Part shown: one piece after another, positions 1,663-23,322 of the stretch
How positions within the stretch are numbered: the stretch's first letter is position 1
How the letters are laid out: the number at the start of each line of letters is the position of its first letter
Origin: a virus
Strand: one strand, 5' to 3'
Virus record (IMG/VR): IMGVR_UViG_3300032092_000255
Span: 1 to 23,908 of that record
DNA: 23,908 nucleotides
Made by a program: the position numbers and the translations under genes
The notes under the pieces: generated by a model
What the model was told of the DNA's origin: nothing
The model's database searches: none
The model's input: only the letters and a program-made list of their open reading frames with translations

Positions 1663-1991
1663 GCATCAACGCGTACAACGTGTATCAACGTGTCGTGCTA
1701 TCCTGCGACCTCATGCACATCCCCAGCTCCATCTTCATCGACGGCAAAGAGTTTCAGGTGGGCTTCGACCGCTGTAGCCCGCCGTCTGGCGACGAACTCA
1801 AGGCCCTCTCCGAAGAGGTGCAACGGCGCATGAACTGCTTGAGGGCGCTTCGGGAGGAAGAGGAGAGGGCGCGCGACCACGCGCAGCGCATCGCGTTGGT
1901 CATCAAGGAGGAGGAGCGCCAGCTCGACCGGGCGCGCACCGTGCTGAGCGTTCGCGCTCACGGCCTGCCCCTGGTGGAGCGGGAGGGCTGA
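1659..1991 (+). CDS. Unknown protein with coiled coil; start uncertain (1659 or 1713)
   Basis: Up to 110 residues. The C-terminal two thirds is a charged heptad-type helix (residues about 45-95, rich in Glu, Arg and Gln), and the N-terminal part has a short beta segment (SSIFIDGKEFQVGF). The family is unknown. The first possible start, ATG 1659, overlaps the preceding stop by 4 bp but has no close ribosome site. ATG 1713 lies 9 bases after a TGCTATCCT extended -10 box, which would give a leaderless or nearly leaderless message. Codons 1-18 cover the AT-richer repeat at 1667-1695, an unusual sequence for coding DNA here. The stop overlaps the large terminase start (TGATG). Confidence 0.6.
   Translation: MSINAYNVYQRVVLSCDLMHIPSSIFIDGKEFQVGFDRCSPPSGDELKALSEEVQRRMNCLRALREEEERARDHAQRIALVIKEEERQLDRARTVLSVRAHGLPLVEREG
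1667..1695 (+). repeat. Three tandem CAACGYGT units
   Basis: CAACGCGTA (1667-1675), CAACGTGTAT (1676-1685) and CAACGTGTCG (1686-1695) follow one another with 9 to 10 bp periodicity, about one helical turn. They end just before a TGCTATCCT extended -10 box at 1697. The arrangement looks like a repressor or activator operator array over a promoter, or iterons. Function is inferred only. Confidence 0.5.
1697..1704 (+). promoter_or_regulatory. Putative extended -10 promoter (TGCTATCCT)
   Basis: The extended -10 form TG-n-TATCCT starts at 1696-1697, with the -10 hexamer at 1699-1704. The same GTGnTAnCCTnG form recurs near 22753 and 23187. No good -35 is visible; the CAACGYGT repeats occupy that position. 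A transcript would start near 1711, next to the ATG at 1713. Confidence 0.4.
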
Positions 1992-3553
1992 TGCTTTTCA
2001 CGGACTTCCTCGAAGAGCTGGGCGTGAGGCTGGAGGCCGGTCAGCGGGCCTTCTGCCGCGTCGCCTTCGACGGGGTCCAGGTGGCCGACCTCCAGGGCGA
2101 GGACCGCGGCTGGGCGATCAAGATCTTTGGCGACCTGCCGCGGATGCCCGACGAGGAGTGGGCGTTCGTGCGGGCGGTGATATGCATTGTGGCCGGGGGG
2201 CGCAGCGGCAAGACGTACCTGTGCAGCCTGCGCATCCTGTACCTGGCCCTGACCCTCGACCTGGAAGGCAAGCTGGCCCCGGGCGAGGAGGCCGTCGCGA
2301 TCATCCTGGCGCCGCGGCTCAAGGAGGCGCAGCTCAGCCTCAAGTACATCGCCGGACAGGCGCGCAAGAACCCGGACATCAAGCGCCTGATCGTGGCTGA
2401 CACGGCTGATCAGCTGGTGCTGCGGCGCCCCCAGGATGGGCAACTGGTGACGATCACACCACAGGCCGCTGGCGCGGGCGGCGTGAGCGGGCGAGGCAAG
2501 ACGCTGATCGCCGTGCTGATGGACGAGACCTGTTTCTTCCGGGACGCGTCGAGCGGGGTGGTCAACGACGATGCGATTTTTGACGCGGCTGAGCCCCGCG
2601 TGATCGAGGGAGGTCAGACGTTCGTGTCGTCTACGCCGTGGGTGGCCCGAGGGCTGCTCCACCGGAAGTGGAAGGAGAACCACGGCCACCCGAAGACGGC
2701 CCTCAGCGCCCACGCCAGCACGCGAAACATGCGCACGAACGCCTTGCAGCTGCGCAAGGTGGACAACGCGTACAAGAAGGACCCGAGGAACGCGGCCATC
2801 GAATTTGGCGCCGAGTGGGGGTCGACCACGGTGGAGCTCTTCTTCACCGACGCCGAGCTGGACAGCCTGTTCGATGGGTCGGCGCCCCCGCTGGGCACCT
2901 TGCCCCGACCTGGCTCGACGGTCGCAGCTGGTGGCGACCTGGGGTTCGTCCGGAACAGCTCCAGCCTGGCGATCGTCGTTCAGGCCCGCGGGGTTGTGAG
3001 GCTGGCGCACCTCGAGGAGCACCAGCCCCCCAAGGGCCAGAAGCTGCGCCCCAGCGTGGTCTGCAGGGGTTTCGCCGAGACCCTGGCGCGCTACGGATGC
3101 GCCGGCCTTGTAGCCGACCAGCACGAGCGAGCCAGCCTGGAGGAGTACCTGTCCGACGCCGACCTCTCGGCCTACGACGCCCCCAGCTCCGTCGACGCCC
3201 TCGTGGCGCTGCGGGCAGCGGTGCGCGAGGGGCGCGTCAAGGCCCCGGTGCCCTTGGAGCAGACGGACGAGGAGGCGCCAGCGGACCTGCCCGGAAGGCT
3301 CCGAGAGCAGCTGGCAGGCATCCGGCAGAAGCGGACGGTGGGAGACGGCCTGGCCGTGGTCCTGCCCACCGCGCTCGATGGCAGCCACTGCGATCTGGCG
3401 GTGGCGTTTGCCCAGGCAGTCTGGGGCCTTGGTGCCGTCGGTGGCGCCGAGGTGGACGAGGAGAAGGAAGAAGACCTATGGGAAGAACGTCATCAGAGAG
3501 AGGTTGCCGCCCGCGAGCGGCGGCTCAGGGCCCGGCAGGAGCGCAGCTGGTGA
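1991..3553 (+). CDS. Terminase large subunit
   Basis: This 520-residue DNA packaging motor has an ATPase part with Walker A GGRSGKT (69-75), Walker B LIAVLMDET (172-180) and the coupling motif SSTP (213-216). The C-terminal RNase H-like nuclease carries the expected acidic triad: Asp316 in GGDLGF, Asp376 in VADQHE and Asp468 in HCDLAVAFA. Together these show an intact ATPase-nuclease that translocates DNA into the prohead and cuts it at termination. Length is normal for the family. The ATG at 1991 follows GGAGGG at 1982-1987 and overlaps the previous stop by one base. The C-terminus ends in a highly charged helix (EEKEEDLWEERHQRE). Confidence 0.95.
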   Translation: MLFTDFLEELGVRLEAGQRAFCRVAFDGVQVADLQGEDRGWAIKIFGDLPRMPDEEWAFVRAVICIVAGGRSGKTYLCSLRILYLALTLDLEGKLAPGEEAVAIILAPRLKEAQLSLKYIAGQARKNPDIKRLIVADTADQLVLRRPQDGQLVTITPQAAGAGGVSGRGKTLIAVLMDETCFFRDASSGVVNDDAIFDAAEPRVIEGGQTFVSSTPWVARGLLHRKWKENHGHPKTALSAHASTRNMRTNALQLRKVDNAYKKDPRNAAIEFGAEWGSTTVELFFTDAELDSLFDGSAPPLGTLPRPGSTVAAGGDLGFVRNSSSLAIVVQARGVVRLAHLEEHQPPKGQKLRPSVVCRGFAETLARYGCAGLVADQHERASLEEYLSDADLSAYDAPSSVDALVALRAAVREGRVKAPVPLEQTDEEAPADLPGRLREQLAGIRQKRTVGDGLAVVLPTALDGSHCDLAVAFAQAVWGLGAVGGAEVDEEKEEDLWEERHQREVAARERRLRARQERSW

Positions 3554-20949: not shown

Positions 20950-21279
20950 ATGGCTGAGCCCACCGGAATTTTGTCTATTGCCGCCGCGGCCGTCGCTGCA
21001 GGTGGCGCGATCCTCCAGGGCGTATGGAAGGCCAAGGACGATCGCGAGAAGGAAGAACGCGCGCGCCGAGAATCCGAGGACAAAGAGGACCGAGAGGCGA
21101 TCTCTCGGCGCCTCGGAGCGCTCGAGTCGAAGGTCGTCGCTCATGACATCGCAGACGCGCGCCACGACCAGGCGCTCGAGCATCTCTCGGCCCTGCTGAC
21201 CGAGATACGCGACGAGCTGCGCGAGATGCGTCGGGCGCTGCTGGAGCGCCCTGGCTCCAGCCCAGGAGGCCGACGATGA
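20950..21279 (+). CDS. One-TM coiled-coil protein, holin candidate
   Basis: This 109-residue product is taken from ATG 20950, four bases after GGAGG (20941-20945). An in-frame ATG at 20926 lacks a ribosome site. Residues about 6-24 are a membrane segment (GILSIAAAAVAAGGAILQGV), followed by a very charged helix to about residue 100 with heptad character (AISRRLGALESKV, LLTEIRDELREMRRALLE). Small single-TM proteins directly upstream of a muralytic enzyme are often holins or their regulators. One TM with a long cytoplasmic or periplasmic coil is compatible but not specific. It overlaps the endolysin start by 4 bp. Confidence 0.55.
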   Translation: MAEPTGILSIAAAAVAAGGAILQGVWKAKDDREKEERARRESEDKEDREAISRRLGALESKVVAHDIADARHDQALEHLSALLTEIRDELREMRRALLERPGSSPGGRR

Positions 21280-21920
21280 TCGATGCAACGAAGTACGCCC
21301 CCACCTTCCGCTCGGCCTGCACGTCGCTCAAGGGGGAGGCCTACTGCTCCCCCACGGTGGTCCAGGCGCTCATGGCGGTCTCGCGCCACGAAACGTGCTT
21401 CAGCGACTGCAAACCCTTCGTGGGGGCCCACAACTACGGCGCGATCCAGTGCGGAGTGATCGCCGACAAGGCCGGGAAATGCCCTGCCAACTGCATCCCC
21501 GCACGGGACACCTCGCCGACTGCAACCGGCGCGAGCATCGCGTACCTTGGATGCTTCCGCGCGAAGCCTTCGGCCGAAGAAGGCATCGCCGATTTCGTGC
21601 GGCTGATGACCTTCCAGCGCCCCCTGATCGCGGAGGCCTTGCCCTCGGGGGACGCGCGGCAGATCGCCTGGGCGATGCGCCGCTCGTACTACTTCGAGGG
21701 CTTCGGCAAGACCCAGGAGGAAAGGGTCGAGAACTACGCGACGGCCATCGCCAAGAACGCGAAGGTGAACGCCTCGCAGCTGCGCCAGGAGCTGCTCGTG
21801 TCCCTCCCGCCCCTCGAGGAGGAGGGCATCGGCACCGTCGACATCGCCGCCGGCTCAACGGCCGCCGGGCTGCTGATCGCAGCGCTGCTCAAGAGGATCA
21901 CGAAAGGATCGCAAGAATGA
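21276..21920 (+). CDS. Endolysin-like peptidoglycan hydrolase with C-terminal membrane segment
   Basis: This 214-residue product starts at ATG 21276, six bases after AGGAGG. The pattern VVQALMAVSRHETCFSD followed by AHNYGAIQ is that of lysozyme-like/glucosaminidase-type hydrolases, with Glu39 as likely catalytic acid. FRAKPSAEEGIADFVRLM and AMRRSYYFEGFGKTQEERVENYA continue the same fold. Eight Cys lie in the first 93 residues (15, 24, 41, 45, 59, 69, 73, 93), suggesting disulfides and an extracytoplasmic site of action. Residues about 188-205 (VDIAAGSTAAGLLIAALL) form a likely membrane segment followed by a basic end. That is unusual: known membrane-tethered (SAR) endolysins carry theirs at the N-terminus. 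No N-terminal signal is visible. Confidence 0.75.
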   Translation: MIDATKYAPTFRSACTSLKGEAYCSPTVVQALMAVSRHETCFSDCKPFVGAHNYGAIQCGVIADKAGKCPANCIPARDTSPTATGASIAYLGCFRAKPSAEEGIADFVRLMTFQRPLIAEALPSGDARQIAWAMRRSYYFEGFGKTQEERVENYATAIAKNAKVNASQLRQELLVSLPPLEEEGIGTVDIAAGSTAAGLLIAALLKRITKGSQE

Positions 21921-22350: not shown

Positions 22351-22608
22351 ATGAGCCGCCGCCTCATCGTCGGCAATGACGACGACGTGCTGTCCGTGGT
22401 CGAGATGCCCGCGGAGGTCATTGGCGCGTGGTGCGACGGGTACGTGACGGGAGCGGGGCTGTCTGATCGGTGGGACACCATCCGGGTCATCGACCCCGAC
22501 GACCCGGCGCAGGTGGAGAAGGCAGAGCAGGAGCTGACCGGCGACGCGCTCGAACGGCTCCGCCTCCTGGCCTACGGGCTGAGGCAGCGCCCTCCGGAGG
22601 AGCCCTGA
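22351..22608 (+). CDS. Unknown 85-residue protein
   Basis: The ATG at 22351 has AAGGG at 22340-22344 six bases upstream, and the probable promoter P1 lies about 45 bases further. The product begins with a beta-like stretch (RRLIVGNDDDVLSVVEMPAEV), has one Cys in GAWCDGYV, a loop with WDTIRVIDPDDP, and ends in a helix (VEKAEQELTGDALERLRLLAYGL). It is acidic and soluble-looking, with no membrane segment. I do not recognise it. It is separated from the lysis genes by its own promoter-like signal, as expected of an accessory gene inserted after the late operon. Confidence 0.6.
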   Translation: MSRRLIVGNDDDVLSVVEMPAEVIGAWCDGYVTGAGLSDRWDTIRVIDPDDPAQVEKAEQELTGDALERLRLLAYGLRQRPPEEP

Positions 22609-22667: not shown

Positions 22668-22737
22668 GCCCGGGGGTCTGCGTAGGCGGGCCGGTGATGC
22701 GAGGCTCGGAGGTCAACCCCCGGGCCTTCTCGCTTTT
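22668..22737 (+). terminator. GC-rich stem-loop with T-tract, possible terminator or attenuator
   Basis: A perfect 10 bp inverted repeat pairs GCCCGGGGGT (22668-22677) with ACCCCCGGGC (22716-22725) around a 38-base loop. TTTT follows at 22734-22737, eight bases after the stem. The loop is long and the T-tract distant, so termination would be weak. The placement between P2 and the next promoter-like element suggests attenuation or a short RNA of about 78 nt. Confidence 0.4.
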
Positions 22738-22768
22738 AATCCGCCACCATGGTGTTAACCTGGTGCTC
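22732..22768 (+). promoter_or_regulatory. Repeated promoter-like element A
   Basis: GCTTTTAATCC (22732-22742) is followed at a fixed distance by GGTGTTAACCTGG, with -10-like TAACCT at 22756-22761 in an extended TGn context. Element B at 23166 shares the first 11 bases exactly and the GGTGnTAnCCT block at the same spacing. CACCATGGTG between them is a palindrome. Transcription would start near 22768, only about 4 bases before ATG 22772. Confidence 0.5.
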
Positions 22769-22771
22769 TCC

Positions 22772-22966
22772 ATGGCCGACGATCACGAGCCCATCCTCAA
22801 ATTCTTCGCGTACGAGCACCTGCCGGCGCACCTCCAGGAGCACTCGCGGCCCTGGTGCGAGCTGGCCCGGCGGCTCGTCGACACCCTGCCTCGCAGCGCC
22901 GAGCGCAGCGTCGCCCTCCGCAAGCTCCTCGAGGGGAAGGACGCGGCGGTGAGGGCAGCGCTCTGA
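22772..22966 (+). CDS. Acb2/Tad1 hairpin-like protein, putative cyclic-nucleotide sponge
   Basis: This is a 64-residue product. Its core (FFAYEHLPAHLQ, then CELARRLVDTLPRSAERS, VALRKLLEGKDAAVRA) matches the two-helix pattern of small phage proteins in the Acb2/Tad1 hairpin group: F-x-Y near the start, a Gln, L-A-x-x-(I/L), P-x-S-x-E-(R/K)-S-x-AL-x-K-L-E, and a late Ala-rich helix. Acb2 binds cyclic di- and trinucleotide signals and so blocks CBASS and related host defences. Binding ability is inferred, not shown. ATG 22772 is chosen because the family begins close to the F-x-Y motif and a -10 box lies 11 bases upstream, giving a leaderless message. An upstream in-frame GTG at 22694 lacks a ribosome site. 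Confidence 0.7.
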   Translation: MADDHEPILKFFAYEHLPAHLQEHSRPWCELARRLVDTLPRSAERSVALRKLLEGKDAAVRAAL

Positions 22967-23101
22967 AGATACCCGTGCGCTGGCGTCCGAGGAGGCCAGC
23001 GGGGAGAAGGCCCCTCCCGGAAGACCCGCAAGGGCAAGGGCAAGTCGACCCGCCTCGGGCGCCACCGTGCGCCGCAGAAGCGGACCATCGGCGGCCACCT
23101 A
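22967..23101 (+). other. Coding-like stretch without intact ORF
   Basis: After the Acb2-like stop there is no ORF with a start codon, yet the sequence keeps a coding-like third-position G/C bias. From about 23021 the Acb2 frame reads KTRKGKGKSTRLGRHRAP, then QKRTIGGHL, with nearly every codon ending in G or C. The preceding 54 bases look more coding in the frame one base over (ALASEEASGEKAPPG). That second frame meets a TAA at about 23099-23101, just before the next stem-loop. This may be a decayed C-terminal extension, a frameshifted gene, or sequence error. Confidence 0.35.
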
Positions 23102-23102
23102 A

Positions 23103-23171
23103 CAACCCCCGCTCTCGCCCCCTCACCTGCAAGCGCTACCGAGGGCCAGCCTGGGCGGGGGTTGGGCTTTT
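23103..23171 (+). terminator. GC-rich stem-loop followed by TTTT
   Basis: CAACCCCCGC (23103-23112) pairs perfectly with GCGGGGGTTG (23155-23164) around a 42-base loop, and GGCTTTT follows immediately. It could end transcription from the Acb2-like gene. The T-tract is also part of promoter-like element B, the same stem plus CTTTTAATCC arrangement as at 22668-22742. Confidence 0.5.
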
Positions 23172-23202
23172 AATCCACCGCGGCGGTGCTACCCTTGGGG
23201 CT
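23166..23202 (+). promoter_or_regulatory. Repeated promoter-like element B
   Basis: GCTTTTAATCC (23166-23176) and GGTGCTACCCT, with -10-like TACCCT at 23190-23195, repeat element A with identical spacing. The interval holds an inverted repeat CACCG/CGGTG. Transcription would start near 23202 and run to the terminator at 23283. Confidence 0.5.
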
Positions 23203-23322
23203 CCTCGACAAAGGCTCTCGCAAGGGAGGCACACATGCGCCCCACCCGCTAACGGCGGCCCAAGGCTATCAGTCACCCAAACCCAGCGCCCTCGATCCTC
23301 GGACCGGGGGCGCTGGCTTTTG
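23202..23322 (+). ncRNA. Putative ~120-nt transcript (small RNA or minigene)
   Basis: A promoter-like element B upstream and a strong intrinsic terminator at the end delimit a unit of about 120 nt with no ordinary ORF. Inside it, AGGGAGG (23223-23229) precedes ATG 23235, which opens only MRPTR and then TAA (23250-23252). It could be a regulatory RNA or a translated minigene. The ends are inferred from signals only. The stretch between the TAA and the terminator stem has no other recognisable feature. Confidence 0.4.
23283..23321. terminator. Intrinsic terminator, probably bidirectional
   Basis: CCAGCGCCC (23283-23291) pairs with GGGCGCTGG (23308-23316) over a 16-base loop and is followed by CTTTT on the plus strand. 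On the minus strand the same stem is followed by GTTTGGG, a weaker T-tract. It lies between convergent genes: the plus-strand unit from element B and the minus-strand genes ending at 23323. Confidence 0.8.

Follow-up and report, generated by a model that had tools for sequence, protein, structure and literature searches.

The locus

The window analyzed here, by which we mean the whole stretch of 23,908 nucleotides from IMG/VR virus record IMGVR_UViG_3300032092_000255, contains a 64-codon open reading frame that is preceded by a promoter-like element and lies between two stem-loops (Table 1). As the earlier sequence-only reading had assumed, this frame is a genuine coding gene. Its codon-position GC content (0.75/0.45/0.92) matches that of the terminase and capsid genes of the same phage, whereas that of its antisense frame does not. 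Moreover, relatives of its product, hereafter the hairpin protein, were found (i) 113 times among pattern-matched IMG/VR stretches; (ii) in 315 GenBank phage records, with hosts including Vibrio, Erwinia, Acinetobacter, Brevibacterium, Gordonia, and roseobacters; and (iii) in 212 genome-contig stretches from many phyla. With hundreds of relatives, the frame is far from a chance occurrence. The protein had also been singled out as near minimal in size; it is indeed short, but most of its relatives are only 60–80 residues long, so that its size is no oddity.

Beyond the TGA codon the frame stays open for a further 68 codons (22967–23170), with no start codon and with a basic stretch, RKTRKGKGKSTRLGRHRAPQKR; codon-position GC is flat across this extension, which is therefore probably not coding. 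Among 50,697 phage records, the terminase large subunit encoded elsewhere in the window (1991–3553) is matched by one only (Virus Rctr16k, 37%), placing this phage far from those described.

The promoter-like element, which consists of CTTTTAATCCRCC, a short palindrome, and an A/C-rich box resembling a -10 box, recurs 434 bases away (23167–23195); the window holds these two matches where 0.14 would be expected, and each copy directly follows a GC-rich stem-loop. We detected no sigma-70 consensus upstream of the gene, and no clear ribosome-binding site between the element and the ATG, and the transcript may be leaderless. The suggestion that the gene has its own promoter thus holds with regard to the recurring element just upstream, but not with regard to a sigma-70 consensus. 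Lying behind this element and between two T-tailed stem-loops, the gene looks like a small self-contained cassette. The second element is followed, at 23195–23321, by AGGGAGG and a five-residue frame (ATG CGC CCC ACC CGC TAA); a strong terminator (z -5.4) ends this small unit, which could be a small RNA or a leader peptide.

Table 1. Positions of features in the window and of paired genes in four related genome-contig loci
Feature	Position	Strand	Remarks
214-residue ORF	21276..21920	+	possible lysin, from reading of the sequence alone; no family match
85-residue ORF	22351..22608	+	directly upstream of the hairpin gene; no family match
GC-rich stem-loop, T-containing tail	22668..22725	+	possible terminator of upstream unit (weak); z -1.24
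Repeated promoter-like element	22733..22760	+	CTTTTAATCC(R)CC, palindrome, TTAACCT; directly before ATG
64-residue hairpin protein	22772..22966	+	ATG to TGA; translation, AlphaFold2, conservation, coding bias
Tyr14 codon	22811..22813	+	aligns with T4 Acb2 Tyr8; Y in 44/46, F in 2/46 relatives
Ser25 codon	22844..22846	+	at T4 Acb2 Lys23; invariant Ser in hairpin family
Arg50 codon	22919..22921	+	at T4 Acb2 Thr68; invariant Arg in hairpin family
Arg61 codon	22952..22954	+	aligns with T4 Acb2 Arg79; invariant in 46/46
Stem-loop, CTTTT tail	23103..23164	+	possible terminator after hairpin gene; z -3.05
Hairpin and DGYxSWSP/Tad2-like gene pair	L264 5947-6707		
Hairpin and DGYxSWSP/Tad2-like gene pair	L284 5995-6740		
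Hairpin and DGYxSWSP/Tad2-like gene pair	L289 5297-6192		
Hairpin and DGYxSWSP/Tad2-like gene pair	L320 1186-1981		

Probable relationship to the Acb2/Tad1 hairpin superfamily

The hairpin protein belongs to PHROG 1761 (1.5e-27) and PHROG 5120 (3e-15), both of which are listed as of unknown function; PADLOC and NCBIfam gave no match to it, and a literature search returned no paper on the family. The family signature is FxYxHLPxxLxxxS...E(R/K)(T/S)xALRKLLExKDxxVRA, and residues F12, H16, L17, L21, S25, E44, R50, K51, L52, E54, K56, D57, and R61, invariant in 46 relatives, remain nearly so in a broader set of 60. One phage record among those listed bears the name "Occludin homology", to which 9 of the 60 members have weak Pfam matches; we attribute this to chance similarity of a helical segment. 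In the hairpin relative gp27 (L255) of Brevibacterium phage 2T, helix 2 is duplicated in frame and in tandem, LPDGPEKSTALRKLLE occurring twice; the record marks 51-base repeats there, and tblastn suggests that other AGM phages differ in this respect.

The sequence-only reading had assigned the protein to the Acb2/Tad1 cyclic-nucleotide sponges and proposed a profile search against their Pfam family as a check. PF24729 (Acb2/Tad1 hairpin) was the only Pfam family returned, but its score (13.8 bits, E 0.07) falls below the curated cut-off of 27 bits, and the hairpin protein is therefore not a Pfam member. T4 Acb2 (71 bits), SBSphiJ7 Tad1 (34 bits), and actinophage proteins, used as calibrators, pass this cut-off. 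When PF24729 was run against 60 diverse hairpin relatives, seven matched at E values of up to 1, the best being 0.0035, and none reached the cut-off.

Profile comparisons supported a remote relationship. PHROG 1454, which represents the actinophage PF24729 group, matches SBSphiJ7 Tad1 at 4e-4, T4 Acb2 at 7e-4, and the hairpin protein at 2e-3, so that the last is about as distant from this group as are two experimentally proven sponges; conversely, PHROG 1761 is matched at 1e-4 by a PF24729 protein from an actinophage. Alignment of the hairpin family with 48 sequences of the actinophage group using hhalign gave an E value of 9e-6 over 34 columns, and a more diverse profile gave 2.3e-6 over 55 columns, reaching through the N-terminal motif (these E values are pairwise and carry no correction for a database search). 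Shuffling the columns 100 times yielded hhalign scores no higher than 17.7, against the 31.8 observed.

The actinophage group in turn aligns with the PaMx33-type Acb2 group (E 2e-4, or about 2e-3 with the profiles in the other order), and its profile finds the solved structures of "Acb2 homolog 43" (E 2.6e-10) and Tad1 (E 2.8e-5). Direct comparison of the hairpin family with the PaMx33/PaP2-type Acb2 group alone was not significant, and searches of solved-structure sequences with the single hairpin protein and with profiles gave weak matches only; one of these, to "Acb2 homolog 43" (E 0.47), led to the intermediate actinophage group. Hence, while membership in the Pfam family did not stand, we consider homology to the Acb2/Tad1 hairpin superfamily very probable, and the PHROG 1761/5120 hairpins are best described as a sister family of their own, both widespread and very conserved.

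Predicted fold

The two-helix hairpin pattern claimed from the sequence was supported by an all-helical AlphaFold2 model (pLDDT 93.8) built on the family alignment, in which a short helix (residues 7–12) precedes two long antiparallel helices (19–38 and 43–62). The same set of helices, one short and two long and antiparallel, has been described for the Acb2 protomer (PMC12043709), and this layout was likewise predicted for an accepted PF24729 relative (helices 6–15, 24–47, and 52–74).

A Foldseek search of the PDB with the hairpin model found neither Acb2 nor Tad1; since the accepted PF24729 relative, used as a control, likewise found nothing, this negative result carries little weight. In a viral structure library the best matches were close relatives of the hairpin protein, and 15 of the 50 matches listed carry Acb2/Tad1 hairpin names. 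The best structural match, BFVD A0A6G6XYP8 of Ochrobactrum phage vB_OspP_OH, is a 122-residue hairpin protein named for an anti-TRAP zinc domain; a weak anti-TRAP match was also seen for the Tad2-like protein of locus L289.

Pocket and interface positions

In T4 Acb2, Y8 and F82 stack on cGAMP, polar ligand contacts are made by Y8, H11, K23, and R79, the last through a salt bridge, and L29, A66, A73, and A77 contribute to the hexamer interface, while S74N disturbs ligand contacts (PMC10097602). In addition, T68M has been reported to lower binding (PMC12657230). Residue equivalences with the hairpin protein were taken from a pooled MAFFT alignment, ungapped through helix 2, which drew on no structural information and predates our reading of the complete list of contact residues.

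Among the T4 ligand residues Y8, K23, R79, and F82, the first and third are kept in the hairpin protein and the other two are replaced (Table 1). The K23 and T68 equivalents are serine and arginine in all 46 aligned hairpin members; in the pooled alignment, Acb2 and the actinophage group have Lys or Arg at the former position, and these two as well as Tad1 have Thr at the latter. S74 corresponds to an invariant lysine, Lys56, and F82 to Leu64, which is leucine in most relatives; the Acb2 group, too, mostly lacks the phenylalanine, with Ala at this position in 33 of the 34 members aligned. The interface residues A66, A73, and A77 correspond to A48, G55, and A59, which are small in 98, 100, and 93% of relatives, respectively; by chance, the three helix-2 positions so named would all be small with a probability of about 0.009.

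Judged from these aligned positions, the pocket would keep one stacking aromatic residue and one arginine while its cationic side chains have moved, possibly to suit a different ligand. Because none of the aligned members retains the Acb2 residue at two of the pocket positions, the proposal that the protein is a PF24729 member binding CBASS, Thoeris, or Pycsar messengers was too strong.

Neighboring genes

The gene had been described as lying after the lysis cassette; while this is plausible from the sequence, none of the three genes upstream matched a lysis family. Relatives of the hairpin gene elsewhere adjoin holin, lysin, or Rz genes, and in some phages they lie inside head modules; both placements suggest that expression may be late.

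Across 175 loci we found no recurrent partner gene, as would be expected for a stand-alone protein: the most frequent genuine neighbors (terminase, lysozyme, and others) occur in at most eight. We discounted the two largest neighbor clusters, of 70 and 47 loci, as antisense shadow frames of the conserved hairpin itself.

In four genome-contig loci, including the mutually related L264 and L320, a Tad2-like domain gene (PF11195, E ~1e-23) lies within 11 bases of, or overlaps, the hairpin gene. The Tad2-like domain is C-terminal in these genes and is preceded by an N-terminal "DGYxSWSP" domain, which matched no Pfam family and which is fused to the hairpin itself in loci L016 and L324. PHROG 872, which spans both domains in L284, matches both kinds of fusion. 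The pair of genes possibly forms a two-sponge operon. None of 50 whole phage contigs carries a PF11195 Tad2-like gene, and the adjacency is thus rare.

Proposed function and alternatives

On balance, we think it somewhat more likely than not that the hairpin proteins are a distinct sister family of sponges whose inter-subunit pockets bind a phosphorylated nucleotide signal. The gene product would be a two-helix hairpin of minimal size within the Acb2/Tad1 superfamily and would oligomerize, like T4 Acb2, through the small-residue face of helix 2. The inter-subunit pockets would hold a phosphorylated, purine-containing signal, on which Tyr14 may stack; Arg61 would also be used, and Arg50 and Lys56 may stand in for the lysine that Acb2 carries in helix 1. 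With a host immune messenger sequestered in this manner, the effector of a CBASS-, Thoeris-, or type III CRISPR-like system would remain inactive. Computation supports the coding gene, the conserved family, the helical-hairpin fold, the remote homology, and the key aligned positions; from these we infer oligomerization, the nature of the ligand, and the anti-defense role.

The main rival, which we regard as rather unlikely, is that a true relative of the Acb2/Tad1 hairpins has reused the fold as a small oligomeric adaptor or as an assembly or lysis-timing factor, binding a protein or a common nucleotide and not an immune signal. The replacement of the K23 and T68 pocket positions throughout the aligned family would fit such a change of role, as would the genes found within head modules or beside holin and lysin genes, and invariance of this degree across phages of many phyla is unusual for a protein engaged in an arms race. 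However, this reading is at odds with the low frequency of even the commonest genuine neighbors and the lack of a recurrent one, and with the retention of the ligand residues Tyr14 and Arg61 and of the hexamer positions; the adjoining Tad2-like genes and the fused domain common to both also speak for a sponge.

It is improbable that the protein is an unrelated helical hairpin resembling Acb2/Tad1 through convergence and composition. The sub-threshold Pfam score, the lack of a Foldseek match to solved Acb2 or Tad1, and the non-significant comparison with the Acb2 core group are consistent with convergence, but the Foldseek result is the same for an accepted PF24729 member, and the profile-profile score lies far above those of shuffled controls, the PHROG matches are reciprocal, and the alignment runs through the N-terminal motif. 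Finally, despite the same predicted protomer layout and the retention of Y14, R61, and the small interface positions, a full PF24729 member acting exactly as Acb2 and binding 3'3'-cGAMP and cyclic trinucleotides is highly unlikely, since the protein misses the family cut-off and has neither the Lys/Arg nor the Thr conserved in the accepted groups with which it was compared.

More tentatively, PHROG 1761/5120 may constitute an unrecognized, very widespread sponge family, carried by phages and likely prophages of many phyla, in whose changed cationic pocket Arg50, Lys56, and Arg61, together with Tyr14, take the place of Lys23/Thr68/Arg79; its ligand would then be a messenger bound poorly or not at all by the known Acb2 and Tad1 proteins. 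Hundreds of phages and contigs, spanning many bacterial phyla, carry the family, which is annotated as hypothetical and sits under the thresholds of the libraries used for finding anti-defense genes. A sponge activity would give a function to a small "unknown" gene that is among the commonest in phages, and the invariant altered pocket would point to a common immune messenger missed by known sponges.

Comparison with known systems

Acb2 (T4 Vs.4, PHROG 717; p26 of Pseudomonas phage PaMx33/PaP2; PF24729) shares its predicted layout with the hairpin protein, as well as the aromatic residue at Y8, the arginine at R79, and the small residues at A66, A73, and A77. Unlike Acb2, the 64-residue hairpin protein lacks the long insert between the helices, has Ser for K23, Arg for T68, Lys for S74, and Leu for F82, and lies outside PHROG 717 and under the Pfam cut-off.

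By profile comparison, the nearest group is the actinophage/Paenibacillus group of PF24729 (PHROG 1454), to which "Acb2 homolog 43" (PDB 9ptq) is related. The two have in common the pattern RF/FFxY(F)...P..(R)E(K/R)(S/T)xALxKLxEA and the predicted layout; however, the actinophage/Paenibacillus group has Arg for S25, Thr for R50, and Ala for R61, and carries the motif FWANAAIAR where the hairpin protein has KDAAVRA.

Tad1 (SBSphiJ7 and relatives) contains a C-terminal hairpin with the same ExxxAxTKLEEA-like pattern, but it has an N-terminal beta domain that the hairpin protein lacks, and its conserved threonine is arginine in the latter. Tad2-like proteins (PF11195), whose genes adjoin the hairpin gene in the four loci described above, differ in fold and family, yet share with some hairpin relatives the same fused N-terminal "DGYxSWSP" domain.
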